Made by a program: the position numbers and the translations under genes
Virus record (IMG/VR): IMGVR_UViG_3300030019_000055
Coordinates: 1 to 48,334 of that record
Source of the DNA: a virus
Direction: 5' to 3' (one strand)
DNA length: 48,334 nucleotides
Notes under the pieces: generated by a model
Databases searched by the model: none
Told to the model about the DNA's origin: nothing
The model's input: the letters and a program-made list of their open reading frames with translations, nothing else
Shown here: piece by piece, positions 5,448 through 37,366 of the stretch
Layout of the letters: every line of letters starts with the position of its first letter
Numbering within the stretch: the first letter of the stretch is position 1

Positions 5448-6521
5448 ATGAGTGTTTATTCAAACAATAGGACACAGTTAGGAAACTATAGTGGCGAAGA
5501 AGTCGTTGCTAATGAAAGCTATACTCATCAAACAGGTTTACTAGAAATGATGATTGACAATACTAAGAATGACCAAGCTATATTCGAAGCAATCATTGCA
5601 AATGATTTTTCACAAGCTACCCCTGGAGCTGCAGTAGAGGAATCTGCTCAATTAGTTCAAGAAGCTGGAAACATTATTGACAGCATTAAAGAATTTATTA
5701 TGAAATGCTGGGAGAAGATTAAAGGTATTTTTAAATCTTTTCTTGTTAAATTTAGCAATGTTGTTATGAGAGATAGCAAAGAGTTTGTTAAGAAATATCA
5801 AAAAGATGTAGTCGGAAAAGACTATTCAAAAATGAAATTTAAATGGAGAACTTTCCATTCTGACAAACTAGCTGGAGCAGATGCTATTGGTGGTATAACT
5901 ACTGCAGCATCAAGTAAATTAGGTGATATCAAGAAAGTAGATAATCTTGATGCTATTATAACAAAATTAGATAATGGTGACGAGTTAAATGAATATTTAC
6001 AAAAAGCAGCTCCTAGTACAACTAAAGAAGACTTCTATAAAGATTATGAAAAAGTTGTATTTGAAGATGAAGAAGAAGTTACTGGTCTTTCTGATGGTGT
6101 TCTTCGTACAATAACTTCATATTTAACTAATGAAGGTGAAGTAACTAAAGGAATTAATAAATTGCAGACTGAAACAGATACTATGTTTAAAGCTGCTCTT
6201 AAAGCAATAGATGCATTCAGTAAAGAACAAACTACTGCATCCCTTGATAAAGATGATAATAAAGCAGCAACTGCATCAGGTATGAGTAAGAAAGCAAATG
6301 TTGCAAGAAGAGTTGTAGAAGTTATGCAAACAGCTGCTAATATGATTATAAAAGCAGATATGGATCTTACTAAGAAAATGGTTGGGCAGAGTAGACGTGT
6401 TTATGGTCAATGTGCAGCTTTCAATCCTAAGTCAGTTAAAGAAAGTGCAGTATTAGCAGAAGCTTTTGGTGAAGTAGCTGAATACGACTTTATTAGTTCA
6501 TACGAAGACTATTCAAAATAA
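5448..6521 (+). CDS. Helical paralogue 1 of 4, candidate internal virion protein (MSVY start)
   Basis: The 357-residue protein starts MSVYSNNRTQLGNYSGEEVV after an AAGGAATG ribosome binding site. It shares its architecture with the next three genes. First comes an N-terminal region of about 75 residues rich in E-S and E-A pairs (ANE|S, VQE|A). Then an amphipathic segment with KEFIMKCWEKIKGIFKSF and DSKEFVKKYQ, then a variable middle, then a C-terminal helix pair near RRVVEVMQTAANMIIK. Codon use is less extreme than in neighbouring genes (GCT, AAC and GGT more common), as expected for an abundant protein. By analogy with T4 internal proteins, the N-terminal region may be a targeting sequence cut off during head maturation. 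No enzymatic motif is visible. Confidence 0.65.
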   Translation: MSVYSNNRTQLGNYSGEEVVANESYTHQTGLLEMMIDNTKNDQAIFEAIIANDFSQATPGAAVEESAQLVQEAGNIIDSIKEFIMKCWEKIKGIFKSFLVKFSNVVMRDSKEFVKKYQKDVVGKDYSKMKFKWRTFHSDKLAGADAIGGITTAASSKLGDIKKVDNLDAIITKLDNGDELNEYLQKAAPSTTKEDFYKDYEKVVFEDEEEVTGLSDGVLRTITSYLTNEGEVTKGINKLQTETDTMFKAALKAIDAFSKEQTTASLDKDDNKAATASGMSKKANVARRVVEVMQTAANMIIKADMDLTKKMVGQSRRVYGQCAAFNPKSVKESAVLAEAFGEVAEYDFISSYEDYSK

Positions 6522-6542
6522 ATTTGAGGAGGTACAATAGTA

Positions 6543-7562
6543 ATGGGTGTTTATACAAGTACTAAAAAATTAGATACATTTGATGAAAGTGCAGTAAATG
6601 TTATTGAATGTAAGTTAGAACCAGGAATTGAAGCTGCAATTAATATAGTTGCAGAATCAGAAGAGAACTATAATAAAATTATGCAGGCAATAGGTGTTCA
6701 TGAGCTATCAATATACGAATCAACTGGTGTTGAAATGGTATATGAAGCAGTGGATTTAGCAGCATTACTAAACAAAGCTAAGGAATTCTTTATGAATATT
6801 CTTGAAAAAATTAAGGGTTTATTCAAAAGATTTTTCGCAATGATTGATTCTTATATTAAATCAGATGCTGACTTTGTTAAACAATATGCTCCAAAGATTA
6901 TCAACGCAGATACTAAAGGATTAAAAGTCAAAGGCTTTAAATTTAGCAATGTTGATAGTTATGAGCTTCCATCCCAATCAACAATGGGTGCTGTATATGA
7001 TTCAGAAGTAGACACTTCTAATTCTGAAGATATTCAAGATTCATTAAGAGGAAAAGTTCTTGGAAAATCAGAAAAGATTGAATCTGGAGAACTATCTAAG
7101 GAACTATTCAAATACTTTAGATCTGATGAAGATTCTAAGATTGAAATAGAAACCATAGTTCCAAGAGAGCAATTGAAATTAGTTCAAGCTACTAAAGAAC
7201 TTAAGACAAAAGCTGAAAAGAACTATAAGAAATTAACAGATGCTATTAATGATATAATCAAAGATTTAGAGAAACAAGCAAAGGCTTCAACTACTACTGC
7301 TGTTGCTAAAGATACAACTGATGCAGATTCAACTGCAGCTTCAGGTAATGTTAGAAAGCTTAATGCACATATTCAATATGCAAAAGATTCTATTGGAGTT
7401 CTTCAAATAGCTAATGGAGCACATTTATCAGCTATTAGAGATCAAAATAGACAAGCAAAATCTATATGCGTTGCTCTAGTTGGCTTTAAAGCAAAGCATG
7501 AAAGCTATAGCTTTACAGATTCAACAAATGAGTCATTTTTAAGTGGCGTAGTGCTTAAATAA
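6543..7562 (+). CDS. Helical paralogue 2 of 4, candidate internal virion protein (MGVY start)
   Basis: The 339-residue protein begins MGVYTSTKKLDTFDESAVNV after GAGGAGGT. It lines up with the preceding gene: AKEFFMNILEKIKGLFKRFF and DADFVKQYAPKII match the amphipathic block of paralogue 1, and the C-terminal helices (AKDSIGVLQIANGAHLSAIR) match too. Candidate maturation sites are FDE|S, IYE|S and VYE|A in the first 75 residues, just before the helical core, and HE|S and NE|S near the C-terminus. It shares the MG(V/I)Y start with three other proteins in the window. Confidence 0.65.
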   Translation: MGVYTSTKKLDTFDESAVNVIECKLEPGIEAAINIVAESEENYNKIMQAIGVHELSIYESTGVEMVYEAVDLAALLNKAKEFFMNILEKIKGLFKRFFAMIDSYIKSDADFVKQYAPKIINADTKGLKVKGFKFSNVDSYELPSQSTMGAVYDSEVDTSNSEDIQDSLRGKVLGKSEKIESGELSKELFKYFRSDEDSKIEIETIVPREQLKLVQATKELKTKAEKNYKKLTDAINDIIKDLEKQAKASTTTAVAKDTTDADSTAASGNVRKLNAHIQYAKDSIGVLQIANGAHLSAIRDQNRQAKSICVALVGFKAKHESYSFTDSTNESFLSGVVLK

Positions 7563-7573
7563 TTAAAAGCTTT

Positions 7574-7607
7574 AAATAGAGATTACCTTTTAGGGTAATC
7601 TCTATTT
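7574..7607 (+). terminator. Rho-independent terminator after helical paralogue 2
   Basis: A perfect 14-bp stem (AAATAGAGATTACC with GGTAATCTCTATTT) encloses the loop TTTTAG. It follows the stop codon by 11 bases and sits before a new ribosome binding site, so it may cut expression between paralogues 2 and 3. Confidence 0.8.
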
Positions 7608-7640
7608 ATTATTTAAAATTTATGGAGGTGTAAATATAAT

Positions 7641-8720
7641 ATGTTTAATACAAATATATTGGCTCAAAAAGAATTCAACACTTCTAATATATTAGAGTAT
7701 AATAATATTGATGAATCTTTCTTCATGGATACATTACAATTTATAAAAGAATCTATGAATGATTATAGAAATATTAACAAGACTCTATATAAAAGTATAT
7801 TAGAGAGTGCAGGTAATGAAGAAATTATAAATGAATCATTCTCTGACTTCTTTGAATCAGTTAAGAAGATAATAGATAAATTTCTTAAGTTTATAAAATC
7901 TTTATTTGATAAATTTATTATTGCTTTTAATAAGTTTATTTCATCTGATAAGTTTATTGAAAAAAATAAAGATAAGTTTGCATCCTTTTCAGATAAGGAT
8001 AAATTCTCTATAGATGGATATAATTATACATTTTCTCCAGCTATTCCATTAATAAATGCACAAGCTAAATTTGAAGAGAGTTTTGTTAAATTAGATTTTC
8101 AAGATCTTCAAGGTGAAACTGATCAAAAGAAGATTATGGAAAAGGTTAAGGAAAAATATACTGAATTAATTAATGATGTAAATGGAGATTGGTATGATTC
8201 CTTCAGAGGAGAAGTTATATCTCAGAAAGCAATAGCTCAAGAAGACTTTGCTCAAGATTTATGGAATGTATATAGAAATGGATCATCATCTAAAGAAACT
8301 ATAGAAATTATAAGTACTTATGTAGGTTCTGCTCTATTAAGATTTCAAAATTATAAAAAAGATGAGAAGTCTATTAAAGATACTAAAGAGAGTATAGAGA
8401 AAGACTATGAATCAATTAAAAAGCAAGTTCAAGGTATTGTTAAACAAAATGCTACTAGGGATATAAATAAGCTTGTTGGCTTGGCTATAAACTCAGATTA
8501 TGATAAGGTTGGAACTGGAAATATAACTGTTTCGACAGAAGTTATGAATCAAATAGATTTATTTGTAAAGAAGAAAGCTGAACAAATAATCGAAATGTGT
8601 AATATACATTCATTAGCATTTTCATATAAACTTGATGCTATTAAGGATTGTTATAAACAAGATAAGGATGTATTATATAAAGCTTTATCTAAATTAGCAT
8701 CTGTTAATACTACTAAATAA
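7641..8720 (+). CDS. Helical paralogue 3 of 4, candidate internal virion protein
   Basis: The 359-residue protein starts MFNTNILAQKEFNTSNILEY after GGAGGTG. Its N-terminal 75 residues hold an unusually dense run of Phi-x-E|S sites (IDE|S, IKE|S, ILE|S, INE|S). Then comes the shared amphipathic core with VKKIIDKFLKFIKSLFDKF and a C-terminal helical part (QIDLFVKKKAEQIIEMC). It lacks the MG(V/I)Y start seen in paralogue 2. The family resemblance is clear in the layout and in the FIKSLFDKF block; pairwise identity is low. Confidence 0.65.
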   Translation: MFNTNILAQKEFNTSNILEYNNIDESFFMDTLQFIKESMNDYRNINKTLYKSILESAGNEEIINESFSDFFESVKKIIDKFLKFIKSLFDKFIIAFNKFISSDKFIEKNKDKFASFSDKDKFSIDGYNYTFSPAIPLINAQAKFEESFVKLDFQDLQGETDQKKIMEKVKEKYTELINDVNGDWYDSFRGEVISQKAIAQEDFAQDLWNVYRNGSSSKETIEIISTYVGSALLRFQNYKKDEKSIKDTKESIEKDYESIKKQVQGIVKQNATRDINKLVGLAINSDYDKVGTGNITVSTEVMNQIDLFVKKKAEQIIEMCNIHSLAFSYKLDAIKDCYKQDKDVLYKALSKLASVNTTK

Positions 8721-8735
8721 AAGGAGGTTAACGTT

Positions 8736-10010
8736 ATGGAATATAGTTCAAATATGTTTGAATATACATCCTTTGTTGCAGATCAAATGTTAGAACAAGC
8801 TAAAATGGATAGATTTATTAAAGAAGCAGTTCTAATAGGAGAATCTAAAAATACAATAAAGAATATGGATGTATTGAATGAGTCAGTTACTGATAAAATA
8901 AAAGAAGCTTTTAAAAAGATTATGGAAGCTATAGGAAGAATGTGGGGTAAGTTCTTAGAAGCTATGACTAATTTAGTTAATAGTAATAGATCTTATCTTG
9001 AGAAATATAAAGATATCATATTAAAGAAAAAGCTACGTAGTGATGTGACATATACAATGTATGATTATGATACAGGCTTAAGAAATATGCTAACATCTGC
9101 AGTTCCAATCTTTAATTATGATCTACCTTTAGATAATCCAGAGGAATTTGAAAAAGCAAAATTTAACCAAATACCTAAATCAGATGCAGCATTTGCTGAT
9201 AGATGTAAATTATATTTTAGAGGTGGACAAGATCCTAAACCATTCCCATCAGCACAGATAAAGATGACAGATATTTTCAATTATTGTTATAATTATGAAA
9301 GTAAGATGAAACCTTTATTGGAAAAAGATTTAAATGAAATTAAGAAAGCTGCTAATAATGCAGCAGATATAATTGATAAGGCTGATAGAGAAAGAAATTC
9401 TCAACCAGCACCTAATACAAATGATAATACTGGTAATGACAATCAATCAAATAATAATGGTGGTAATAATCAATCAAATAATAATAACCAGTCTAATAAC
9501 AACAATAACAATAATAACCAGTCTACCCCTTCTGGAAATAAAAATAGAGAGCATAATGAATCATTTAATATATATGGTAATAAATCATATTATTCATTTG
9601 TATATGAAGCATATATAGAAGAGCTTCAGATATCATATGCTGGCGGTTCTAATAATGGAGGGCAAGAAAATAATCCTGCGGCAAATATGAAAAATGTACA
9701 AGGAACTCCTCAAGATAAAGAATCACAAACTGCAGCAGTAAAGAATGACTCTTCATCATATGATGATCAGATAAAGAAAGTACAAACATATCTAAATGTT
9801 TGTGGTGGATTATTAGGAGCTAAACAAACTATTGCTGAAGAGATGTTTAAAGAATATATGCAAATAGTTAAAAATCATGTAAGAGATAATGTAGGAACTC
9901 CAAAGAGTGATACTACTAATGATAAAGTAGCAGATGCTGGAACAAATTATAAAAATGTAGTAGATAAAGCTTTCAGCAATCCTGCACCAGAAGAGAAAAA
10001 TAAAAAATAA
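8736..10010 (+). CDS. Helical paralogue 4 of 4 with Asn-rich linker
   Basis: The 424-residue protein begins MEYSSNMFEYTSFVADQMLE after AAGGAGGT. The N-terminal part carries IKE|A, IGE|S and LNE|S. The amphipathic core follows (IKEAFKKIMEAIGRMWGKF, then NRSYLEKYKDIIL). An Asn/Gln/Ser low-complexity linker (about residues 225-270) separates it from the C-terminal helices (DQIKKVQTYLNVCGGLLGAK). The linker is encoded by repeated AATAAT/AATCAA triplets and may have expanded by slippage. It ends with a charged EEKNKK tail. It is the last gene of this plus-strand operon. Confidence 0.65.
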   Translation: MEYSSNMFEYTSFVADQMLEQAKMDRFIKEAVLIGESKNTIKNMDVLNESVTDKIKEAFKKIMEAIGRMWGKFLEAMTNLVNSNRSYLEKYKDIILKKKLRSDVTYTMYDYDTGLRNMLTSAVPIFNYDLPLDNPEEFEKAKFNQIPKSDAAFADRCKLYFRGGQDPKPFPSAQIKMTDIFNYCYNYESKMKPLLEKDLNEIKKAANNAADIIDKADRERNSQPAPNTNDNTGNDNQSNNNGGNNQSNNNNQSNNNNNNNNQSTPSGNKNREHNESFNIYGNKSYYSFVYEAYIEELQISYAGGSNNGGQENNPAANMKNVQGTPQDKESQTAAVKNDSSSYDDQIKKVQTYLNVCGGLLGAKQTIAEEMFKEYMQIVKNHVRDNVGTPKSDTTNDKVADAGTNYKNVVDKAFSNPAPEEKNKK

Positions 10011-10020
10011 TAACAAAAAA

Positions 10021-10048
10021 TATCCTAGTGCTTAATTGCACTAGGATA
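10021..10048. terminator. Bidirectional terminator between convergent genes
   Basis: A 10-bp stem (TATCCTAGTG with CACTAGGATA) with loop CTTAATTG lies between the plus gene ending at 10010 and the minus gene ending at 10041. The minus gene's stop codon is inside the right arm. T runs occur on both sides. Confidence 0.8.
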
Positions 10049-11273: not shown

Positions 11274-11284
11274 TTATGTTTGTC

Positions 11285-13755: not shown

Positions 13756-14661
13756 TTACTTGTAAAAACTGATAACTTTTTGTTTAGTATTAATTGATAT
13801 AGGTATTTTTAATTTACATATAGCATTTACTAAATCTTCTATTCGCTCACCATTATTAATATGCTTATTTAATATATATTTATTTATACTATATTTTCTA
13901 GAAATTTCGGTTTTAGTATAATTGGTTCCCATTATATTTATAGAAGTGCAACTACTTCTATTATTTGCTTGTTCAATCTTTGTTGCCCATCTACAATTCC
14001 AAGGAGCATATATTTCATCATTATCCATTCTATCTATAGTCAAGTCATCTCTATAGCCATTTTCAATAGCCCAATTATAAAAATTATTTAATCCATCATC
14101 TTCTAACCATTCATTACATACATAAATTCCTCTTTTCCCATATCTATAATAATTTGGATTATTAATATCATAGCATCTTCGTATCATTGCATCATATATA
14201 CTATATAATCTAGTATTAGATAATCCATGTGTTGTTAATTTTTCTTTAATCTTTTCTAATCTTATACATCCACATGATTGTATATCTTCATCTTTTAAAT
14301 GAGATAATCTAATTGGAGTTTCTAGCATTAGATTATTACATGAGCATTTACAATAATAATAATGATTACTATCTTTATCAGTATATGCATACTTTATAAT
14401 AGTTAATCTATTATATGTTTTTCCTATAAAGTTATATTTATAATAATTTTCAGTACATATTTTGCATACATGTCTTGATTTATCCATTCTATGCTTAGTT
14501 ACAAATATAATATTATTACATATTTTACATTTGTATTTAGATAATATAGAACCATCATTAGCTCTATCATTACAATATTCTTTTATTAATTCCCATTCTC
14601 CATATATACCTCTTCTGCATTTTTTATCATCATCGTAGTCAATAACCACTTGTCTACTCAT
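13756..14661 (-). CDS. Free-standing HNH homing endonuclease
   Basis: The 301-residue protein has N-terminal zinc-ribbon-like cysteines (CKICNN then CKIC, about residues 45-70; CKCSC and SCGC, about 100-130). A domain common in phage HNH/AP2-type endonucleases follows: THGLSNTRLYSIYDAMIRRC, YGKRGIYVCNEW, LTIDRMDNDEIYAPWNCRWAT. The C-terminus (YTKTEISRKYSINKYILNKH) is a helix-turn-helix of the kind homing enzymes use for site recognition. It is preceded by AGGAGGTGAT. No intron core is visible around it, so it is probably a free-standing element between modules. Its target is unknown. Confidence 0.8.
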   Translation of the reverse strand: MSRQVVIDYDDDKKCRRGIYGEWELIKEYCNDRANDGSILSKYKCKICNNIIFVTKHRMDKSRHVCKICTENYYKYNFIGKTYNRLTIIKYAYTDKDSNHYYYCKCSCNNLMLETPIRLSHLKDEDIQSCGCIRLEKIKEKLTTHGLSNTRLYSIYDAMIRRCYDINNPNYYRYGKRGIYVCNEWLEDDGLNNFYNWAIENGYRDDLTIDRMDNDEIYAPWNCRWATKIEQANNRSSCTSINIMGTNYTKTEISRKYSINKYILNKHINNGERIEDLVNAICKLKIPISINTKQKVISFYK

Positions 14662-16655: not shown

Positions 16656-16669
16656 TTTACATATCTCCC

Positions 16670-17386: not shown

Positions 17387-17406
17387 TTTACATATCTCCT
17401 TAATTT

Positions 17407-18015: not shown

Positions 18016-18041
18016 TTTTATATGCTCCCTTAGATCTTTAT

Positions 18042-18437: not shown

Positions 18438-18451
18438 TTTACATATCTCCC

Positions 18452-23643: not shown

Positions 23644-23700
23644 ATAAATCATCTCCTTATATAATATTATCCTTATGTTTACCTAATATTCAACAAAAAA

Positions 23701-27371: not shown

Positions 27372-27866
27372 TCAGTCTTTAGTCTCACCTTCTATACTAC
27401 TATAGATTTGCTTTGCTGTATGATTTGGAAACTTTTTATCATAAAGATAAATAGATACATATTTTTGTCTTTCTAGTAATTTAAATCCAGCCTTCTCTAC
27501 TACTTTCTGAGAACCTATATTATCATTATCTGGATGAGATATTATAAAACGTTGTTTAGAATTGCTTTCTAATGCTTCTTTTAGCATGTTATATGCTAAG
27601 CCACGATGCCTAAACTCTGAACGTATTGCAAACTCTAAGCAATATATTGGACCTTCCTCTGGTTTATTTAATCTAATATAACCTGCAACAACCCTATCTA
27701 CCTTTTCTATTTTTTCATATACAGTTGTATATGATTGTTCTATAGATCCAGGACGCTTAAGGAGATTGTCTCTTTCCTTACTAGATAAACTTGTTATAAT
27801 TTTATTTATATCAGCATTAGTGTCATAAGATTCAGTTATAATTTTATTTACATTGTATATACCCAT
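27372..27866 (-). CDS. GNAT-family N-acetyltransferase with MGIY start
   Basis: The 164-residue protein starts MGIYNVNKIITESYDTNADI after AAGGAGTA. The GNAT core is visible: VAGYIRLNKPEEGPIYCLEF (about 62-81) as strand 3-4, SEFRHRGLAYNMLKEAL (about 84-100) as the acetyl-CoA motif R-x-x-G-x-A, then VVEKAGFKLLERQKYVSIY as the closing motif. It resembles the first domain of the 1192-residue polyprotein. ITE13|S just after the MGIY tag matches the candidate maturation site, so I infer it may be a packaged enzyme. Its acceptor is unknown. Confidence 0.75.
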   Translation of the reverse strand: MGIYNVNKIITESYDTNADINKIITSLSSKERDNLLKRPGSIEQSYTTVYEKIEKVDRVVAGYIRLNKPEEGPIYCLEFAIRSEFRHRGLAYNMLKEALESNSKQRFIISHPDNDNIGSQKVVEKAGFKLLERQKYVSIYLYDKKFPNHTAKQIYSSIEGETKD

Positions 27867-27939
27867 ATTAAATACTCCTTTATAATTTTATTTCTTTAAT
27901 TCATTATATTCTATATGCATTTTTCTATCATCCTTTCTA

Positions 27940-29034
27940 TTATATTGTTTTATCATATATGCAAAAATATCTATATTTATTAATATCAAATTTTGGTTCA
28001 TCTAATTTAAATTGTTCTTTCAATTCTACTATATCAACATATACTCCATGTTTTAATGTTATTATACTATGCATATGCTGTATATCATATAAAAATTGAG
28101 GATATCCAAGAGGTGCAACTTCTCTATTATTACACTCTTTTTTACACTGTTCTAAGTTATCAGTAAATGTAGTATAACTATCATAAAAACATTTATTGAA
28201 TTCTATACTAGTATTTACTGTTATACATTTATATAAAGGTTTATTTATTGGTTTAACAAATTCTTTTAAATGACCAGCTTTAACTAATTTATAAATACTA
28301 TCTAAATATATATGATTTCCTAAAGCTGAATTTAATTTTTCTTTTAAAATATTATATTTTAATGAACTACCATATATTTTTATTTTATCATTATTTAAAT
28401 ATATTATCAATGCATCTACTAATCTAAGAATATCTGATTTTTCAATTATACTATTTTGTAATTTATTTATAAGATATTCTCTTTTATAATTATTTATACT
28501 ATCAGTAATTCCTAATACAGAGACTAATTCATTTATAGTATATATCTCGAAATACTTATCTATTTCTATTAAATTATAAATATACATTTCATCATTATGC
28601 TTAGAATTAGAAATGAATCCGTAAGGTTCCAATCGTTTTAAATAATCATTTCCAGTATAATTGTAATTATATACCTTACTATCTAAACTTGAAAAATATT
28701 TTTCATCTAATTGATCATTACTATATATAGATATATTAAAATCTTTTGCTATTTCACTCACTATATTTCTATCATAGTGACAAATATCAATGTAAGTTTT
28801 TAATATATCCTCATCTACATTTGAATTTGATATTTTATACATATTATCACATAATTGATCAATATCTATATTTAAATTTGGTGTTTTTATATAATTAATC
28901 TGTCTATCAACTCTATACCATATTTGACGTATTCTTTCTGGAGTTAATTTATATATAATCGCTATTTCTTTATAAGTTTTTCCTTCATTTTTTAAATTAT
29001 ATATTTCCATGTTTCTTTTTTTATTATTAATCAT
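27940..29034 (-). CDS. Putative transcription regulator with sigma region 4-like HTH
   Basis: The 364-residue protein has near its N-terminus the helix-turn-helix GKTYKEIAIIYKLTPERIRQ (about 18-37), closely matching sigma-70 region 4 (T..EIA...G.T.ERVRQI). The remaining 320 residues are unrecognised and helical (YFEIYTINELVSVLGITDSI, RLVDALIIYLNNDKIKIYG). There is no visible region 2, so it is not a full sigma factor. It could recruit the phage or host polymerase or act as a repressor. It is preceded by AAGGAGAT and a promoter-like element at 29092-29134. Confidence 0.65.
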   Translation of the reverse strand: MINNKKRNMEIYNLKNEGKTYKEIAIIYKLTPERIRQIWYRVDRQINYIKTPNLNIDIDQLCDNMYKISNSNVDEDILKTYIDICHYDRNIVSEIAKDFNISIYSNDQLDEKYFSSLDSKVYNYNYTGNDYLKRLEPYGFISNSKHNDEMYIYNLIEIDKYFEIYTINELVSVLGITDSINNYKREYLINKLQNSIIEKSDILRLVDALIIYLNNDKIKIYGSSLKYNILKEKLNSALGNHIYLDSIYKLVKAGHLKEFVKPINKPLYKCITVNTSIEFNKCFYDSYTTFTDNLEQCKKECNNREVAPLGYPQFLYDIQHMHSIITLKHGVYVDIVELKEQFKLDEPKFDINKYRYFCIYDKTI

Positions 29035-29856: not shown

Positions 29857-30366
29857 TTATATTTCTTTACCAGCTTTGTTTATAAAATAACATTTACTAT
29901 TTAATCTTACAACTGCTAAACCTTTATGAAAATCATATGCTTCATCATATATTAAGGATATGATTACTTTACCTTCTTTATCAATAAATCCCCATTTATT
30001 ATCCAATACTACTATGGCTAATCCTTTATGAAAATCATATACATCATCATATATCAATGGTATAACTTCTTTACCTTCTTTATTAATATATCCCATCTTA
30101 TCATTCAATTTTACTAAAGCAAGTTCTTCATTAAAATCACACACATAATCATATTTTAATGGTATAACTTCTTCACCATCTTTATTAATAAAGCCATATT
30201 TCTTATCTAATCCAACTATTGCTAATCCCTCACTAAAACTAGATATGAAATCATATTTACATGGAACAACTTCTATCAATTCTTTATTAATAAATCCATA
30301 TTTATCACCCAATCTAATTTCTGCTAATCCTTCATAAAATCTATTAAGATCATCATATTTTTTCAT
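29857..30366 (-). CDS. WG-repeat protein 1 (169 aa)
   Basis: The protein consists almost wholly of WG-type repeats of about 22-23 residues (consensus YDxxxxFxEGLAxVxLxxKxGFIN then GxEVIPxxYD), about seven units. The first unit opens MKKYDDLNRFYEGLAEIRLG. WG repeats form beta-hairpin arrays and act as binding scaffolds in many bacteria; their partners are mostly unknown. It is most similar to the next gene, including the leader GGTGGTATATATTAA, so the pair is a recent duplication. Confidence 0.85.
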   Translation of the reverse strand: MKKYDDLNRFYEGLAEIRLGDKYGFINKELIEVVPCKYDFISSFSEGLAIVGLDKKYGFINKDGEEVIPLKYDYVCDFNEELALVKLNDKMGYINKEGKEVIPLIYDDVYDFHKGLAIVVLDNKWGFIDKEGKVIISLIYDEAYDFHKGLAVVRLNSKCYFINKAGKEI

Positions 30367-30390
30367 TTAATATATACCACCTTTTTTATA

Positions 30391-30900
30391 TTATATTTCT
30401 TCACCAACTTTATTTATGAAATAACATTTACCATTTAATTTTACAACTGCTAAATCTTCTTTGAAATCATATACTTCATCAAATATTAATGGAATTACTT
30501 CTTCACCTTTTTTATCAACAAATCCCATTCTACAACCTGATTCTACTATTGCTAAGCCACCACAAAATTCATAACCATTAGCATATATTAACGATATAAC
30601 TTCTTTACCTTCTTTATTAATATATCCTATATTATCATCTAATCTTACTAATGCCATTCCTTCAATAAAATCATATGCATAATCATACTTACACTGTATA
30701 ACTTCTTTACCAGCCTTATCTATATATCCAAATTTACCATCTAATGATACCACTGCTAAACCTTCACTAAAAAGTTCTGCAGAACTATATTTACATGGTA
30801 TAACCTCTACTAATTCTCTATTAATAAACCCCCATTTACTACCTAATCTAATCTCAGCTAAACCTTCACTAAAACTACCTAGATCATCATATTTTTTCAT
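30391..30900 (-). CDS. WG-repeat protein 2 (169 aa)
   Basis: It has the same length and register as WG protein 1, opening MKKYDDLGSFSEGLAEIRLG and closing KCYFINKVGEEI. Differences concentrate in exposed positions of the repeats (for example YANGYEFCGGLAIVESGCRM), consistent with diversification of a binding surface after duplication. Confidence 0.85.
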   Translation of the reverse strand: MKKYDDLGSFSEGLAEIRLGSKWGFINRELVEVIPCKYSSAELFSEGLAVVSLDGKFGYIDKAGKEVIQCKYDYAYDFIEGMALVRLDDNIGYINKEGKEVISLIYANGYEFCGGLAIVESGCRMGFVDKKGEEVIPLIFDEVYDFKEDLAVVKLNGKCYFINKVGEEI

Positions 30901-30913
30901 TTAATACATCCCC

Positions 30914-31741
30914 TTATAATTGTATTTCTTTACCAGCTTTATTTATATATATCCACTTATCATTTAATTTTACTATAGTATGCTTATTATGAAAATTATG
31001 TGCTTCATTATATATTAATGGTATAACTTCTTTACCATTTCTATCAATGAATCCAAATTTATCATTTAATTTCACCATTGATAATCCATCAATAAAATCA
31101 TCTATATAATCATATTTACATGAAACTATTTCTTCATCATTTCTATTAATTAATCCATATTTATTATTCAATACTACTAGAAGTCTTTTTTTATCAAAAC
31201 TAAATATATCATCATATTTTATTGGTATTATTTCTTTATCTCGTTTATTAATAACACCCCATTTATTATTTAGTTTTACAGCTGCTAATCCATTTTCAAA
31301 CTCATCTATATCATCATATTTACATGAAACTGTTTCTTTACCCCTTCTATTTATAATACCCCATTTTTCATCCAGTCTAAATGAGCAAAGCCCTTTACTA
31401 AATTCACTTATATCATCATATTTTAATGGGACTACAACTTTATTATTAGTGTTGATAAATCCCCAACCACCATTAAGTGTTACTTTTATCATATGATCAT
31501 TATTAATATATTGAGACATATTATCATATATTAATGGAATTATTATTTTACCTTTTCTGTTAATAATTCCACATTTATTATTAATGTTTACAGCTATTAA
31601 TCTTTTATTAAATTTAGATACGATATCATATATTAATGGTATTACTTCTTCTTCTTTTTTATTAATAAATCCCCATTTATCATTCAATACTACTTTTGCT
31701 AATCCATCATTAAAACTAAATACATAGTCATATTTTTTCAT
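30914..31741 (-). CDS. WG-repeat protein 3 (275 aa)
   Basis: This is the longest WG protein in the block, about 12 units, opening MKKYDYVFSFNDGLAKVVLN. Many units have NKWGFIN or NKWGVIN followed by EIIPIKYDDI. Its start directly abuts the stop of the upstream gene ending at 31742, so the two genes are probably translationally coupled. Confidence 0.85.
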   Translation of the reverse strand: MKKYDYVFSFNDGLAKVVLNDKWGFINKKEEEVIPLIYDIVSKFNKRLIAVNINNKCGIINRKGKIIIPLIYDNMSQYINNDHMIKVTLNGGWGFINTNNKVVVPLKYDDISEFSKGLCSFRLDEKWGIINRRGKETVSCKYDDIDEFENGLAAVKLNNKWGVINKRDKEIIPIKYDDIFSFDKKRLLVVLNNKYGLINRNDEEIVSCKYDYIDDFIDGLSMVKLNDKFGFIDRNGKEVIPLIYNEAHNFHNKHTIVKLNDKWIYINKAGKEIQL

Positions 31742-32347
31742 TTAATATCCCCCTTTAACCATATCATTAAAATTAGATGTTTTATCATATTCACATGGTA
31801 TAACTTCTTTGCCTTCTTTATTAATAGCTCCAAATTTATCATTTGCTTTTACTATTGCAAATCCATTCTTATCAAATTCAAATACATCATCATATTTTAT
31901 AGGTGTTATCTCCTCCCCTTTTACATTTATTAATCCATATTTATTGTCTAGCCTTACTGTTGCAATATAATCATCAAATTTAGATACCTTTCCTATTTTA
32001 AATACCCTTTCTAATCTAGATATCCAATCATATCTTAATGGTATTATTTCTCTTCCACGATTATCTATTAATCCCCACTTATCATTAAGCTTTACTATAG
32101 ATATTTTTTCATTAAAATCAGATATATCGTCATATTTTATTAATACAATTTCTTTATCTTTCTTATTAATAAATCCACATTTACCATTTAGTTTTACAAA
32201 TGCAATTCCATTCATAAAATTATATGCAAAATCATATTTATATGGTATTATTATTTTACCAGTTTTATCAATAAAACCCCATTTACCATCCTTTATCGTT
32301 CTAAAAAGTCCTTCATGATAAGTAGATACAAATCCTAATTCATTCAT
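31742..32347 (-). CDS. WG-repeat protein 4 (201 aa)
   Basis: It has about eight WG units, opening MNELGFVSTYHEGLFRTIKD. One irregular insertion (ISRLERVFKIGKVSKFDDYI) breaks the register in the middle. It overlaps the upstream WG gene by 8 bases and abuts the downstream one, and ends abruptly after NFNDMVKGGY, perhaps truncated within a repeat. Confidence 0.8.
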   Translation of the reverse strand: MNELGFVSTYHEGLFRTIKDGKWGFIDKTGKIIIPYKYDFAYNFMNGIAFVKLNGKCGFINKKDKEIVLIKYDDISDFNEKISIVKLNDKWGLIDNRGREIIPLRYDWISRLERVFKIGKVSKFDDYIATVRLDNKYGLINVKGEEITPIKYDDVFEFDKNGFAIVKANDKFGAINKEGKEVIPCEYDKTSNFNDMVKGGY

Positions 32348-32873
32348 TTAGAACATCCTCTTTATCAAATAATATATCATCCTTATTAATAGTACCCCAT
32401 CCACTCTTTGTTCTTACACATAATATTTTTTTATCAAAACTAAATAATGCATTTTCATATATCAATGGTACTACTTCTTCACCTTTTGTATTAATAAATC
32501 CCCATTTATCATTTAGATTTACAGATGCTAATCCTTCTCTAAAATAACAAGCCATATCATATTTTAATGGTATTATTTCTTCACCTTTTTTATTAATATA
32601 TCCAAATTTATTATCTACTCTTACTGGGGAAAGCCCATCATGAAAAATAGTATTATATGAATTATATATATATTTACATGGAATTATTTCTTCGCCTTTT
32701 GTATTAATAAACCCCATCTTACCATTTAATGAAACTGGAGCTATCCCTTCTTCGAATTTAAATATATGATCATATATACATGGTATAATTTCTTCATTAT
32801 CTTTATTCATTAATCCCCATTTATCATTTAGCATTACTATTATTAATCCATTTTTAATATCATATTCTTTCAT
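32340..32873 (-). CDS. WG-repeat protein 5 (177 aa)
   Basis: It has about seven WG units, opening MKEYDIKNGLIIVMLNDKWG. The last unit loses the consensus and ends TINKDDILFDKEDVLNE, running over the start of the next gene. The ATG is embedded in the stop region of the 49-residue ORF upstream (ATGA overlap), so coupling is likely. Confidence 0.8.
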   Translation of the reverse strand: MKEYDIKNGLIIVMLNDKWGLMNKDNEEIIPCIYDHIFKFEEGIAPVSLNGKMGFINTKGEEIIPCKYIYNSYNTIFHDGLSPVRVDNKFGYINKKGEEIIPLKYDMACYFREGLASVNLNDKWGFINTKGEEVVPLIYENALFSFDKKILCVRTKSGWGTINKDDILFDKEDVLNE

Positions 32874-33019
32874 TTAGATGTCTCCTTATTTAAATATAAT
32901 ATAGGATCGTGGCACATACAGGGTATTACTTCTTCTCCTTCTTTATTACTAAACCCCCATTTATTATCTCGTCTTGATCTTATTAATCCTTCACTAAGTA
33001 TATTATCATATATATTCAT
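32870..33019 (-). CDS. Very short WG-repeat ORF (49 aa), possibly a remnant
   Basis: ATG at 33017-33019 follows AAGGAGATG and opens a 49-residue ORF (MNIYDNILSEGLIRSRRDNK, then WGFSNKEGEEVIP), ending with TGA at 32870-32872, which overlaps the next ATG. It holds one complete WG unit and part of another. It leads the WG transcript and sits just behind a promoter-like element, so it may serve as a leader ORF, or be what is left of a deleted longer gene. Confidence 0.6.
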   Translation of the reverse strand: MNIYDNILSEGLIRSRRDNKWGFSNKEGEEVIPCMCHDPILYLNKETSK

Positions 33020-33043
33020 AATTAAAACATCTCCTTATAAATT

Positions 33044-33082
33044 TATTCATATGTATAATATATGGTTATTATTAAATTTGGC
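33044..33082 (-). promoter_or_regulatory. Putative promoter for the WG operon
   Basis: On the minus strand it reads AACCATATATTATA (33054-33067) then CATATGAATAAA, close to the recurrent core plus ATGAATAA. It lies downstream of a terminator and about 30 bases upstream of the first WG ORF. Confidence 0.5.
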
Positions 33083-33089
33083 AAAAAAT

Positions 33090-33115
33090 AAACTAGAGAA
33101 ATCAATCTCTAGTTT
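33090..33115 (-). terminator. Terminator, ACTAGAGA family
   Basis: A 10-bp stem (AAACTAGAGA with TCTCTAGTTT) is followed on the minus strand by ATTTTTTGCC. It ends the gene at 33123. Confidence 0.85.
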
Positions 33116-33122
33116 AACTTTC

Positions 33123-33497
33123 TTAAGGCATCATTATAACTTTTGCAGAAGTGAATAGCTCAATTTCTTTAGCAACACCTCTAGCAGTACCTGAATCTAA
33201 AACAAACATTCTATTTACTGTATTAGCAACGTGCTCTCTTACAGTATATAAATCTTTCATAATATCATCAAATGATTTATATTCTTTTAGTTCCCATATA
33301 AGATCATCACCTAATGTATTTTCAAGCATATCAATTATATCTGTTGTAAATCCTTTTTCAACTACTATATGCCTTGGTAAAAAGCAACAATGAAATTCAT
33401 ATTTATTTTCATTCTTTAATTGTACTAGTTGTTCTTTTACCTTTTCTAGATTTGCAGTTCCTGCAAAACAGATTTGAGCTTTGATTTTTTCATTCAT
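33123..33497 (-). CDS. Unrecognised 124-residue alpha/beta protein (possible nucleotide-related fold)
   Basis: The protein begins MNEKIKAQICFAGTANLEKV and ends with a strand-turn-helix-strand NRMFVLDSGTARGVAKEIEL ... AKVIMMP. That ending recalls the nucleoside 2-deoxyribosyltransferase/LOG-type Rossmannoid pattern (strand, S-x-GT, EI helix, V-strand), but the match is weak and no catalytic Glu can be assigned. It is inserted between WG genes and has its own terminator. Confidence 0.5.
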   Translation of the reverse strand: MNEKIKAQICFAGTANLEKVKEQLVQLKNENKYEFHCCFLPRHIVVEKGFTTDIIDMLENTLGDDLIWELKEYKSFDDIMKDLYTVREHVANTVNRMFVLDSGTARGVAKEIELFTSAKVIMMP

Positions 33498-33539
33498 ATT
33501 AATTCCCCCAATAAATTTTATTTTATATAGTTGTTAATA

Positions 33540-34154
33540 CTATAATTTTTTACCACTTTTATCTATAAAATAGAATTTATTATTTAATTTAACACCTGCT
33601 AAACCTTCTTGAAAATCATATATTTCATCATATATACAAGGTATTACTTCTTCGCCTTTTATATTTATATATCCACATTTACCATTCAATTCTACTGAAA
33701 TCATTCCATCTTTAATAAAACTATAAGTATGATCATATATTAATGGTATTATTATTTTATTTTCTATATTAATAAACCCTGTTTTATTATTTAATTGTAC
33801 TCGTATTAATTCTTCGGTAAAGTCATATACATAATCATACATTATTGGAATTATTACTTTACCAGTTTTATCTATATACCCATATTTATTATTCAATTCT
33901 ATAGATGCTAAGCCATTATAAAATGTAAATATCTGATCATATTTACATGATATTATTTCTTTACCATTCTTATCTATACATCCCCATTTACCATTCAATT
34001 CTACCATTCCTAGACCATCTTTAAAATTAAATCCATAATCATATATAAATGGAATTATTTCTTCACCTTTAGTATTGATAAAACCCCATTTATTACCTAA
34101 TTTTACTGATGCTAATCCATCTTGAAAATCATGTATACTATCATATTCCCTCAT
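33540..34154 (-). CDS. WG-repeat protein 6 (204 aa)
   Basis: It has about nine regular WG units, opening MREYDSIHDFQDGLASVKLG and closing NNKFYFIDKSGKKL. It is transcribed upstream of the 124-residue gene at 33123. Repeats are clean and in register throughout, so the protein is probably intact. Confidence 0.85.
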   Translation of the reverse strand: MREYDSIHDFQDGLASVKLGNKWGFINTKGEEIIPFIYDYGFNFKDGLGMVELNGKWGCIDKNGKEIISCKYDQIFTFYNGLASIELNNKYGYIDKTGKVIIPIMYDYVYDFTEELIRVQLNNKTGFINIENKIIIPLIYDHTYSFIKDGMISVELNGKCGYINIKGEEVIPCIYDEIYDFQEGLAGVKLNNKFYFIDKSGKKL

Positions 34155-34225
34155 ATCATATTCCTCCTATAATCTTTATTTATATAATTGTTTATATTAT
34201 AATTATTATTAAATTTAACAAAAAA

Positions 34226-34253
34226 AATAGACTAACAGTTAAGCCAGTCTATT
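34226..34253 (-). terminator. Decayed copy of the GACTAGC-family terminator
   Basis: The outer 8 bp (AATAGACT with AGTCTATT) pair, but the inner part reads AACAGTTAAGCC where other copies have AGCAATTAAGCT, so the apical stem is broken. A T run follows on the minus strand. It may be weaker than its siblings. Confidence 0.6.
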
Positions 34254-34260
34254 AATTAAT

Positions 34261-34911
34261 CTAATCTCTAGTATCTGATATAGTATATTTATATATTGCT
34301 ATTACTTTTCCTTCAGTATTCATAAATCCAAATTTATCATCTATTTCTATTTCAGCAATACCATCTTTAAAATCAGATATAGTTTTATATATAATAGGAG
34401 CTAATTCTTTTCCTTCTTTATTGATTAATCCCCACAATTTACCTATACGAACCTTAGCTATACCATTTGAAAATTTTCTTGCCATACTATATCTACATGG
34501 TATTATCTCTTCACCTTTAGTATTAATATATCCCCATTCGTGGCCTATTCTTATACGGGCAAACCCTTCTCTAAAATTTCCCGCAAAATCATATTTATAT
34601 AGTATTACTAATTCATTTTTTATATTAATATATCCCCATTTATAATCATTCCCCCTTACTGCAGTTAATCCTTCAGAAATTCTAGTTAACATATCATATT
34701 TACATGGTATTATTTCTTTACCTATAGTATTAATATATCCGTATTTGCCATTCAATGTTATTTTAGCTAGTCCTTCATTGAAATTAAATCCATAATCATA
34801 TATTAATGGTATTATCTCTTCACCTTTATTATTAATAAATCCCCATTTTCCATCTAATGATACTGATGCTAATCCTTCAAAAAATCCAAATGATTTATCG
34901 TATTCTTTCAT
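34261..34911 (-). CDS. WG-repeat protein 7 (216 aa)
   Basis: It has about nine WG units, opening MKEYDKSFGFFEGLASVSLD and ending YKYTISDTRD. Compared with the other WG proteins it carries more basic positions (FARIRIGHEWGYIN, IAKVRIGKLWGLIN). It is downstream of the 114-residue gene at 34936 and ends at a partly decayed terminator. Confidence 0.85.
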   Translation of the reverse strand: MKEYDKSFGFFEGLASVSLDGKWGFINNKGEEIIPLIYDYGFNFNEGLAKITLNGKYGYINTIGKEIIPCKYDMLTRISEGLTAVRGNDYKWGYINIKNELVILYKYDFAGNFREGFARIRIGHEWGYINTKGEEIIPCRYSMARKFSNGIAKVRIGKLWGLINKEGKELAPIIYKTISDFKDGIAEIEIDDKFGFMNTEGKVIAIYKYTISDTRD

Positions 34912-34935
34912 AATTAAAACATCTCCTTATAAATT

Positions 34936-35280
34936 TTATTTTACTACATTCCAATCAGTAGTTCCCCATACATTATTTAAATCTAATACATGTCCATCAG
35001 ATTCAACAACCTTTAAATATGCACCAATAAAACTATCAGTTTTTTTATCAAACACTCTTGACTCTAATAGATATAGTTCTTTTTTATATAGGGTATTTTC
35101 AAATGATACATCTTTTCCATCAACAACCGCATCTACACGTATTTGATTATCGCCATCAAATGATATGACTTTGTTTAATGCAGCTTTTAATTCTGATTTA
35201 TCACTAAATAGATCAGAATTTAATCCTTTCTTAATATCTTTAGTTAATAATAATTGTTTTAAATTTAATTCTTTTTCCAT
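34936..35280 (-). CDS. Unrecognised 114-residue protein between WG genes
   Basis: The protein begins MEKELNLKQLLLTKDIKKGL with a charged helical N-terminus, followed by a beta-rich part (NQIRVDAVVDGKDVSFENTL, GAYLKVVESDGHVLDLNNVW). There is no WG repeat. It heads its own transcript behind a clear promoter-like element and is followed by WG protein 7. Confidence 0.55.
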   Translation of the reverse strand: MEKELNLKQLLLTKDIKKGLNSDLFSDKSELKAALNKVISFDGDNQIRVDAVVDGKDVSFENTLYKKELYLLESRVFDKKTDSFIGAYLKVVESDGHVLDLNNVWGTTDWNVVK

Positions 35281-35310
35281 AATAAAAACATCTCCTTATA
35301 AATTATATTT

Positions 35311-35354
35311 TATTCATGTATATAATATATAATTATTATTAAATTTAACAAAAA
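35311..35354 (-). promoter_or_regulatory. Putative promoter with full consensus
   Basis: The minus strand carries TTGTTA, 16 bases, the exact 14-mer AATTATATATTATA (35321-35334) and TACATGAATAAA. It precedes the gene starting at 35280. The layout is nearly identical to that at 27095-27135. Confidence 0.6.
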
Positions 35355-35357
35355 AAA

Positions 35358-35384
35358 ATAAACTAGCAACTAAGCTAGTCTATT
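35358..35384 (-). terminator. Terminator, GACTAGC family
   Basis: ACTAGC pairs with GCTAGT plus outer pairs around an A.C mismatch, loop AACTAA, with a long T run (TTTTTTTTG) on the minus strand. It ends WG protein 8. Confidence 0.8.
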
Positions 35385-35386
35385 AA

Positions 35387-35797
35387 TTATAATCTTTTAC
35401 CATTCCTATTTATAACACAAAATTCCCCCTCTAATGATATTACAACTGCTAAATCTTCTTTGAAATCATATACTTTATTATATATTAATTGTACAACCTC
35501 CTCTCCTTTTGTATTAATAAATCCCATCTTATTATTCAATTCTACCAATGCTAATCCTTCTTTAAAACTAGATATAAAATCATATTTAAACGGTATAACT
35601 TCTTTACCAGTCTTATCTATACATCCATACTTATTATCTAATTCTACCGATGCTAATCCTTCACAAAAATCATATACTTGCCAATATTTACATGGTATAG
35701 CTTCTTCTCCTTCTTTATTAATAAATCCCCATTTATGTTTTGATTCTACAGCTGCTAGTCCTTCACTAAAACTATGTATATTTTTATAATCTTTCAT
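35387..35797 (-). CDS. WG-repeat protein 8 (136 aa)
   Basis: This is a short WG protein of about six units, opening MKDYKNIHSFSEGLAAVESK and ending GEFCVINRNGKRL. It stands alone between a promoter-like element (35821-35862) and a terminator, unlike WG proteins 1-5, which are in one transcript. Confidence 0.85.
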   Translation of the reverse strand: MKDYKNIHSFSEGLAAVESKHKWGFINKEGEEAIPCKYWQVYDFCEGLASVELDNKYGCIDKTGKEVIPFKYDFISSFKEGLALVELNNKMGFINTKGEEVVQLIYNKVYDFKEDLAVVISLEGEFCVINRNGKRL

Positions 35798-35820
35798 AAT
35801 AAAAACATCTCCTTATATTT

Positions 35821-35862
35821 TATTCATATATATAATATATAATTAAAAATTATAATATCAAC
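35821..35862 (-). promoter_or_regulatory. Putative promoter for WG protein 8
   Basis: The minus strand shows TTGTTG, 19 bases, the exact 14-mer core (35831-35844) and ATATATGAATAAAA, then AAGGAGATG. Confidence 0.55.
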
Positions 35863-35871
35863 AAAAAAAAA

Positions 35872-35893
35872 AGACTAGCAATTAAGCTAGTCT
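35872..35893 (-). terminator. Terminator, GACTAGC family, overlapping gene end
   Basis: AGACTAGC pairs with GCTAGTCT, loop AATTAA, followed on the minus strand by TTTTTTTTTG. The stop codon of the nuclease gene (35882-35884) is within the hairpin. Confidence 0.85.
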
Positions 35894-37366
35894 ATTAATC
35901 ATAATATTTATATAAGGTATTGATGATATACTATCATAAGATTTTGTTCTTCTATCACTTTGTTCATTATATATAAAGTATCCATTCATGTCTTGTAATA
36001 TATTTGTATTTTCATTATTGAATAATATCCTTTTCTTACTATTTATATCTAGCATATCAGTTAACTCTGTGTATAATAAACTATGGGTTTCTTTATTAGC
36101 AAGATGAATAAGTGTAGCTTCATTTATCTGAGTATCTAATACTGATTCAATAAATGCGTCAGCACAGTCTTCTAAGTTTTCATCAAATATTAATTGATCC
36201 ATACTTAATAAGTTTTTCCCACATACTTTTTCATATAGATAGAATCTATTATCTATATTTGTTTTATTATTATAATCTTCTAATATACTTTTATATACTT
36301 CTTTAAAATTATCTCCAGTATATTTGTATACATTATATTTACTCTCATATAAATCTTTGATAGATCCTTTTTCTATTTTATTATCTTTTATCTTATACAT
36401 ATTAGAGAAATACTTATCAGTAGATAAAGCAATATTAAAAGAATTATCCATTAGATATGGTATGATATAAGCATTGTCTGATTGGTTATTTTGATTTGGC
36501 ATAGCCCCTCCTAATTCAGATTCATTTATTCTTATAATATAATCAGTATTATTTTCTTTATTCGGATCAATCATTTGATATTTTATTTCAGCAAGTATCA
36601 ATAGTAATTGATCAAAATTATTATTAGTTAATCTTATATAGTTATATTTGTTTAATTTAGAAATATCGTCTTCTTTTGCATCTTGCTTAGCTCTATAGTC
36701 ATCCATTTGCCTATTGTTAGGATTATCTCCACCATCTTTTACATCATGGACCAGATTTGCTGGCACATAGTATACATCAGTAATCCAATTCAATGTTTTT
36801 CCTTGATATTGATATTGTATTACAGGACCAGGAGTGATTACATCTTTAGAATGAGCACGTACAACTTTATCATAAAACTCTAATAATTTCTTTTCATAAG
36901 AACCACAGTATGATCTAATACCACCATCTTCAAATTTATATGTTCCTGAGATTTTTCTATTAGATAACATCTTTTTTTGTTGTTCTGGATCATTTAATAA
37001 ATTCTCTTTACCAAATACACCAACCATATTAGCTCTCATTCCAGCTATATATTCTTTCTCACATTTTGGCATTTCGCATAATCTTTCATATCTCCAAGTC
37101 TCATCATTCCATTTAGTTTCTTTTTTACATACAATACAAGAACCATGATCCTTTTTATTTATATAATTAAATACAGCTCTTGATGCAGGATAATCTTCTG
37201 ATAACATATCTTCATGTTCATCATCAACATGACTTACTAATCTTTCTCTTGTATCATGATAATCACAATAAGGACATTTCCATTTTCTTTCTACACCAGT
37301 CGTTTCTAATAATATAGCTAGTTCATTTAAATGAATTATATTATTTGTAGGATTGTAAATTCCCAT
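35882..37366 (-). CDS. Zinc-finger plus PD-(D/E)XK-like nuclease with MGIY start
   Basis: The ATG at 37366 (MGIYNPTNNIIHLNE, 494 residues) is 9 bases after AGGAG; an upstream TTG is less likely. Residues 29-50 form a C2H2-like finger (KCPYCDYHDTRERLVSHVDD, then H51). CIVC (77-80) and CEMPKC (97-102) look like a second metal site. A PD-(D/E)XK-type core follows: SYEKKLLEF with E158, NWITDVYYV with D197, VHDVKDG with D208-V-K210, then a helix and KYNYIRLTNN, the layout of Vsr-like and phage nucleases. The C-terminal 210 residues are unrecognised. LNE15|L, INE282|S and INE416|A match the candidate maturation sites and fall after the tag and between regions. A packaged, processed nuclease is inferred. 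Confidence 0.7.
   Translation of the reverse strand: MGIYNPTNNIIHLNELAILLETTGVERKWKCPYCDYHDTRERLVSHVDDEHEDMLSEDYPASRAVFNYINKKDHGSCIVCKKETKWNDETWRYERLCEMPKCEKEYIAGMRANMVGVFGKENLLNDPEQQKKMLSNRKISGTYKFEDGGIRSYCGSYEKKLLEFYDKVVRAHSKDVITPGPVIQYQYQGKTLNWITDVYYVPANLVHDVKDGGDNPNNRQMDDYRAKQDAKEDDISKLNKYNYIRLTNNNFDQLLLILAEIKYQMIDPNKENNTDYIIRINESELGGAMPNQNNQSDNAYIIPYLMDNSFNIALSTDKYFSNMYKIKDNKIEKGSIKDLYESKYNVYKYTGDNFKEVYKSILEDYNNKTNIDNRFYLYEKVCGKNLLSMDQLIFDENLEDCADAFIESVLDTQINEATLIHLANKETHSLLYTELTDMLDINSKKRILFNNENTNILQDMNGYFIYNEQSDRRTKSYDSISSIPYINIMINRLA

Follow-up and report, generated by a model that had tools for sequence, protein, structure and literature searches.

The 48,334-nt stretch of DNA analysed here (the window; positions 1 to 48,334 of IMG/VR virus record IMGVR_UViG_3300030019_000055) is identical to the reverse complement of bases 28828-77161 of a longer record, IMGVR_UViG_3300030294_000005 (236,184 bp). 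One of its virion-type proteins matches proteins of the jumbo phages AR9/PBS1, BpSp and LPJP1 and of Staphylococcus S6-type and Fusobacterium JD-Fnp phages, and on its protein sequences the phage is related to the AR9/phiR1-37 jumbo phages. The 236-kb record encodes homologues of the AR9 major head protein, prohead protease, terminase, tail sheath and tape measure protein, together with a virion RNA polymerase (vRNAP) subunit homologous to that of AR9. Five genes in the window specify otherwise different proteins that begin with nearly the same four residues, MG[IV]Y or MSVY, here termed the tag. These genes, and the modules recognized in two of them, are as follows (a slash after a glutamate marks a candidate cleavage site).

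5448-6521, plus strand: inner-head-like protein IPb, beginning MSVYSNN; leader possibly extending to ANE/S (5448-5516)
6543-7562, plus strand: inner-head-like protein IPa, beginning MGVYTST; leader possibly extending to TFDE/S (6543-6587)
20065-23643, minus strand: tagged multidomain protein of 1192 amino acids (aa), beginning MGVYDATKFHE/I, with nine [ILM]xE[SA] sites against 2.0 expected from shuffling
23278-23595, minus strand: GNAT acetyltransferase module of that protein, aa 17-122
22684-23259, minus strand: P-loop module of that protein, aa 129-320, AAA/APS-kinase-like, below Pfam cut-offs
20674-21303, minus strand: C92/YiiX-like permuted papain-type domain of that protein, aa 781-990
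27372-27866, minus strand: tagged GNAT acetyltransferase, MGIYNVNKIITE/S; leader 27831-27866
35882-37366, minus strand: tagged endonuclease, MGIYNPTNNIIHLNE/L; leader 37322-37366; C-terminal extension after IIRINE/S
36572-37288, minus strand: Zn-finger/endonuclease module of that protein, aa 27-265, homologous to AR9 gp232, which has neither leader nor extension

All five starts had been picked out in an earlier reading of the letters alone (the sequence-only reading), and all are present, each with a Shine-Dalgarno-like sequence. The longest open reading frames (ORFs) at 23643 and 37366 open 9 nt further upstream, at ATG 23652 and TTG 37375. Because a GGAG box overlaps these upstream codons and sits 9 nt before the ATGs at 23643 and 37366, the latter are the better starts, as had been proposed. 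Genes were called with a simple caller, which gave 290 genes in the 236-kb record at one setting and 283 at another. That reading had also suggested a search of the complete genome for M[GS][IV]Y starts, and they prove to be well above chance: seven of 283 genes carry one, compared with 0.65 expected from column shuffles (p<=5e-5), and in the window the figures are five of 64 and 0.53 (p<=1.5e-4). An internal methionine is followed by [GS][IV]Y in only 1 of 1576 cases. The two tagged genes outside the window encode an M48-type zincin, which starts MGIYKIPKIIEE, and an acidic, Asp/Thr/Asn-rich scaffold-like protein of 313 aa, which starts MGIYSSKVILE and sits between the homologue of AR9 gp114 (a virion protein) and the major capsid gene. 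A short N-terminal leader is thus common to otherwise unrelated proteins from several Pfam families. Tyr4 is present in all seven, a residue fixed by the choice of search pattern.

The likeness resides at the protein level, because the seven genes differ synonymously in these codons (GGA/GGT, ATA/ATT, TAT/TAC). The corresponding DNA pattern, ATG(G/A)GN(G/A)TNTAY, has 28 matches in the record, only seven of which are gene starts. The nine ATGGGG-type ones among them, at 41-48 kb, fall without exception inside WG repeats and out of frame, and were rejected as extra tagged genes. A cluster of WG-repeat proteins (KWGFIN...), interspersed with a few other genes, occupies 29857-35797 on the minus strand of the window, and its repeats mimic ATGGGxxTTTAT out of frame.

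The nearest relatives, found through the capsid protein, are 25 further virus records with 48-59% identity. With the phage's own this makes 26 records, of which 12, its own among them, were retrieved in full for gene calling; several of the remaining records repeat the same phage. Two records, G021 (57 kb) and G014 (127 kb), are plainly incomplete. The acidic protein that precedes the capsid gene in relatives likewise opens with a short leader, as in MGIYSGKKYNFGYIHE, MGLFFPRYKVKPLNE, MGIFFNGLRSLNE and MSIFFNNLDVYNE. Many leaders of relatives have F or Y at position 4, which is absent in G014 (Gly4) and some others. We compared leaders across four head families: the scaffold-like proteins, two inner-head-like families and one conserved family of 134-158 aa. 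Within a phage the four are alike, reading MGIF in G005, MGLF or MGIF in G019, MG[IL]Y in G003 and M[VI]YG in G014. Likeness within phages exceeds that between phages by 7.44 BLOSUM units (p=2e-4 from 5000 shuffles, the tree not being modelled), and p stays <=0.003 when any single phage is dropped. Control stretches at residues 13-17 and 61-65 show no significant within-phage likeness, and residues 31-35 gave p=0.054; the concerted change stands out at residues 2-6 and is weak at 7-11.

A leader profile built from the other phages, with G014 excluded, was run over the 283 N-termini of the record. It ranked the acetyltransferase at 27866 first, the scaffold-like protein second, IPb (5448) third, the nuclease at 37366 fourth and IPa (6543) fifth; the multidomain protein and the zincin are not among the nine N-termini listed. 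More genes start with the loose pattern M[GSA][IVLFM][FY] than chance predicts (p<0.05) in five of the 12 phages (G001, G003, G005, G019 and G026). Eight of the 15 hits in G005 were rejected as cargo, being judged by eye to form a repetitive MAIYANE/MAVYVNE family; without that family 7 of 220 genes remain, against 2.8 expected (p=0.016). AR9 itself was rejected as a carrier of the same tag, its first 250,000 bases giving one loose-pattern hit where 1.6 were expected.

The sequence-only reading had placed an x-x-E site shortly after each tag. The pattern is present. In the stricter form suggested by the capsid protein, with a hydrophobic residue two before the glutamate, a site lies in residues 6-28 of six of the seven tagged proteins and also of 47% of the other proteins of these phages (1165 of 2465). 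For the multidomain protein, FHE/I at residue 11 may be preferable to TNE/R. The capsid protein of phiR1-37 has an annotated mature N-terminus at Ser87, after MLQE, and a glutamate is found in 29 of 29 rows of the capsid alignment (some rows being the same phage twice), at the place aligned with Ser87 in three outgroup rows and one residue earlier in 26 rows of the clade; the residue two before the glutamate is I, V, L or M. Scaffold-like proteins have a hydrophobic-x-E site in residues 6-28 in all 12 records, to be set against the same 1165 of 2465. In the M48 family the leader varies in length and ends in [ILV]xE before xYxGK, the glutamate being invariant in the six aligned sequences, AR9 included; a seventh and longer protein, from G019, reads LNE/AYFGK. 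Several of the nine sites in the multidomain protein fall between recognized domains. In other proteins, hydrophobic-x-E sites adjoin the recurring modules at the start of the DUF6582-like module (10 of 11; 1.6 expected), the end of the nuclease (11 of 11; 4.0 expected) and the start of the P-loop module (4 of 7; 1.0 expected), counts drawn from related sequences that are not independent. As a genome-wide detector on its own, [ILM]xE[SA] was discarded: it gave 141 matches overall against 100 expected, and few proteins stand out. A prohead protease of the gp21 type is encoded in the record (Peptidase_S77, 1.2e-11, over the cut-off) and is a homologue of AR9 gp113.

The tagged genes at 5448 and 6543 are two of a cluster of four located immediately after homologues of AR9 gp213 and gp214. 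The neighbours are these.

2911-4308, plus strand: homologue of AR9 gp213, which is annotated as a structural protein of the virion; gene order as in AR9
4316-5344, plus strand: homologue of AR9 gp214, likewise annotated as a structural protein of the virion
7641-8720, plus strand: untagged inner-head-like protein with four [ILM]xES sites in residues 23-66
8736-10010, plus strand: untagged inner-head-like protein with five [ILM]xE[SA] sites in residues 28-65 and a sub-threshold phiKZ_IP match

The inner-head-like family has the consensus start MGxYSxN. Its profile matches AR9 gp215, an annotated virion protein in the same slot, with an hhalign probability of 74.6% (one-to-one E 2.6e-5), and AR9 gp216 weakly (12.7%). 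Similarity to phiKZ_IP (PF12699) reaches E<=0.1, below the cut-off, in 5 of 14 family members; matches at E<=0.01 occur in 6 of 11 records compared with none of 14 control genomes, and the curated cut-off of 27 bits is exceeded in none of the 11 records. IPa and IPb are paralogues (26% identity). A search of a phage collection with 6543 by tblastn (E limit 0.1) found nothing. The AlphaFold2 model of the inner-head-like protein has a mean predicted local distance difference test score (pLDDT) of 68.7, with structure matches only at low template modelling (TM) scores; in the model of IPb, residues 1-34 fall below pLDDT 50, and the leader of the tagged proteins is probably disordered.

Several effector-type domains share one polypeptide in the protein at 20065-23643, namely the GNAT, P-loop and papain-type modules listed above. 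Across all 12 homologues of the C92/YiiX-like domain one His and one Cys never vary, and one homologue matches PF05708 at 9.8e-5, below the cut-off; the model of the domain (pLDDT 87) finds 3kw0 as the best PDB match (E 8e-7, TM 0.57). Searching the phage collection with this polyprotein by tblastn (E limit 1e-3) returned nothing, and scans of viral contigs with the nuclease and the polyprotein found only the phage of the window. Matches to the nuclease at 37366 begin at query residue 29 or 30 in BpSp and Staphylococcus phages and at residue 12 in LPJP1; the homologue in AR9 is untagged, with four residues ahead of the aligned part.

Related modules recur in relatives as parts of larger proteins. 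In the scaffold slot of G019 lies a 1247-aa protein (L110:1366-5106, minus strand) that begins with the leader MGIFFNEA and continues with a weakly transglutaminase-like part (E 0.008), a GNAT module 40% identical to that of the window polyprotein, a DUF6582-like module just below the cut-off, DUF362, two internal leader-like stretches (MGLFFSKAQERDILNGINE and GGFFFTKEEEYNILNE) and an acidic scaffold-like part. In relatives, homologues of the P-loop module occur in nuclease proteins and in proteins of vRNAP-beta type; in G005 and G021 the module lies within proteins that have segments in common with the vRNAP-beta protein of the record, and so does, in G023, a GNAT domain like that at 27866 (25% identity, E 3e-6). 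Such fusions put these modules on proteins expected in the head. At 98537-103780 of G001 (loci L013-L014) a vRNAP-beta protein matches AR9 from residue 403 onwards; ahead of that match lie a DUF6582-like module and several hydrophobic-x-E sites, the first ~80 residues recur in relatives, and this N-terminal part is perhaps a long propeptide.

Upstream of 30 head genes the most enriched gapped word is AACA-N6-TAA. This fits the late promoter of AR9, the template strand of which reads 3'-UUGU-N6-AU-5' (PMC9209446). The longer word precedes 14 of 27 head genes and 4 of 7 tagged genes compared with 47 of 249 others (p=0.0003 and 0.03, respectively); both sets of head genes, 30 and 27, are our own list, drawn up from AR9 homology and gene position. 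The shorter AACA-N6-TA lies before five of the seven tagged genes and 71 of 253 non-head genes, and the two tagged genes without it closely follow other head genes. The motif is too short to be proof of lateness. A sharper AAACA form, picked only once the data had been inspected, was set aside. Its occurrences before tagged genes in the window are the following.

5389-5400, plus strand: late-promoter-like AACA-N6-TA before 5448
23668-23679, minus strand: late-promoter-like AACA-N6-TA before 23643
27938-27949, minus strand: late-promoter-like AACA-N6-TA before 27866, weaker, beginning inside the end of the upstream gene
37392-37403, minus strand: late-promoter-like AACA-N6-TA before 37366

We propose, with a probability of roughly three in four, that MG(I/V)Y forms the core of a capsid-targeting leader, cleavable and core-binding, that works like that of T4 and carries both structural proteins and effector modules into the head. 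The sequence-only reading had suggested that the phage loads a mixed cargo with a tag of its own, and this is the best explanation that we can infer, with a scaffold-like protein now added to the tagged set. It is supported because the scaffold-like protein by the capsid gene and two inner-head-like proteins are tagged, because leaders vary in concert across non-homologous head families of relatives, and because an acetyltransferase module is fused to a scaffold-like protein in G019 and a gp21-type protease is encoded. Packaging and removal of the tag are inferred from these gene and protein sequences. In the proposed mechanism, core proteins would assemble first, and leaders with an aromatic residue near position 4, together with neighbouring residues, would dock on the assembling prohead core, so that the proteins bearing them are built into the head as the shell forms. 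The S77-type prohead protease would then cut after hydrophobic-x-E, freeing the cargo while the leaders leave, and the same enzyme would cut the multidomain protein at its linkers. DNA would enter after cleavage, and the cargo would be ejected with it and act early in infection.

Several observations weigh against this proposal. No hydrophobic-x-E site is present in IPb, which has only ANE/S, and chance alone produces many sites of this kind; the proteins at 7641 and 8736, members of the same inner-head-like cluster, are untagged. In the test of concerted change the control residues 7-11 gave p=0.028, and removal of G014, G005 and G003 together, which carry most of the effect, raises p to 0.10. 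The loose pattern is not above chance in seven of the 12 phages, and the first 250,000 bases of AR9 hold no such tag. Nuclease orthologues lack a leader in seven of 10 clade relatives, and of the other three only that of G005 resembles the tag; the phiR1-37 homologue, annotated as a structural protein, has none, and the listed orthologues of the C-terminal part of the polyprotein are untagged. Therefore either the tag is not the sole way in, or these leaderless copies stay outside; on the proposed reading, loading would follow several routes, the leader being one of them.

The same absence of the tag from most nucleases and polyprotein-type proteins of relatives would fit a leader that serves the assembly of structural proteins only, its presence on enzymes being a coincidence or relic and the enzymes acting in the producing cell. 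We regard this as quite unlikely. Four enzymes in one genome carry the exact MG[IV]Y, where 0.33 such starts are expected in all, AACA-N6-TA precedes all four, related modules elsewhere are fused to scaffold-like or vRNAP-beta-type proteins, and the phiR1-37 nuclease homologue is annotated as structural. An N-terminus shared by enzymes and structural proteins implies in itself only a common partner, which might be something other than the prohead core: a chaperone, a membrane site, or import machinery of the kind with which some jumbo phages are reported to bring proteins into a phage nucleus. That the tag docks or folds with such a partner is unlikely, given that the tagged set includes the scaffold-like protein by the capsid gene and inner-head-like proteins, and that the leaders of the scaffold-like and M48 proteins end at prohead-protease-like sites, which an import signal would not need. 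Finally, phage modules shuffle and IPa and IPb are paralogues, as would suit a start inherited through recent duplication, or a common translation-enhancing DNA element, with no role at the protein level. We consider this very improbable in view of the synonymous variation in the first four codons and of the concerted change of the leader, at the level of protein and chiefly at residues 2-6, in families that are not homologous.

The proposed leader resembles the capsid-targeting sequence of T4, which is carried by IPI, IPII, IPIII and Alt and cut by gp21: both are N-terminal stretches of ~10-15 residues on unrelated, here putatively internal, proteins and enzymes, and both phages encode an S77-type protease. 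The aromatic residue at position 4, in this phage fixed by the search pattern (the T4 IPII leader is MKTYQEFIAE), and a candidate hydrophobic-x-E end are possible further likenesses. In T4, as in this phage, an acidic protein adjoins the capsid gene. Unlike T4, the leader here reads MGIY or MGIF in a lineage of AR9/phiKZ type with a multisubunit vRNAP, and its carriers include the scaffold-like protein and a large multidomain protein rich in internal sites. A stretch this short does not allow homology to the T4 leader to be shown. Targeting in T4 has been mapped to leader residues 4 and 7 and processing to residues 8 and 10 (PMC9026906).

The inner-body and ejection proteins of phiKZ and SPN3US, processed by the gp175 and gp245 proteases, offer a second comparison, in the sub-threshold phiKZ_IP similarity and in cutting after x-x-E, which is predicted here. 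The paralogues gp53 and gp54 of SPN3US share an identical 15-residue N-terminus (PMC5694885), and the propeptides reported for that phage are mostly of 111-254 residues, with A-x-E (PMC10052503). The N-terminal site clusters of 7641 and 8736 are somewhat like these long, multiply cut propeptides. In contrast to the shared start of the SPN3US paralogues, the short leader here is on non-homologous proteins and would end in I/L/V/M/F-x-E. The polyprotein at 20065-23643, which the tag and the fusions in relatives suggest is packaged and injected, also recalls the polyvalent proteins described by Iyer et al. (2017) (PMC5512222), which are multidomain, combine GNAT, peptidase and other modules, and are thought to be packaged and injected. 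It differs from those MuF and portal fusions, as described there, in that loading would use a common leader, or fusion to a scaffold-like protein or vRNAP, and in having protease-type sites at module borders.

As to how giant phages choose the proteins that enter the head, their known propeptides are mostly long, and hints at targeting come from SPN3US gp47 and gp53/54 (PMC5694885, PMC7411985). In the open-licence literature on capsid targeting in jumbo phages or by the prohead core and on injected proteins or polyproteins, which led to work on T4, SPN3US/phiKZ and polyvalent proteins, we found, as far as its accessible text goes, no short leader common to non-homologous proteins of AR9/phiKZ-type phages. 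If the proposal is right, the injected proteome of uncultured jumbo phages would be predictable from sequence, with candidate host-takeover enzymes named and the scaffold-like protein indicated as the docking partner, and a second protein-delivery tag would stand beside that of T4. A broader possibility, to which we give even odds, is that a clade of AR9-type phages uses a general capsid-loading code that combines a phage-specific, core-recognized leader with hydrophobic-x-E seams. Effector modules (acetyltransferase, P-loop, papain-like, nuclease and DUF6582-like) would be swapped freely among three carriers (the leader alone, the scaffold-like protein and the vRNAP N-terminus) and would be cut apart in the head before injection.

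Some further features of the window were recorded in passing. The protein at 25549-26595 (minus strand) has 32% identity to the N-terminal part of the AR9 large terminase and is possibly an extra terminase ATPase part; the 236-kb record has a longer homologue of terminase at 213489-215621. By eye, 104-1441 (minus strand) encodes an RCC1-like repeat protein, with a similar one starting MGLNIHSAFLLND at 212126-213472 of the record, and the ORFs at 13756-14661 (minus strand) and 44812-45621 (plus strand) look like homing endonucleases of HNH/AP2 type. Another shared start is seen at 15936-18943 (minus strand), where five adjacent genes, paralogue-like by eye, begin with MK[IL]ILVKE..DGFLYE or nearly so.

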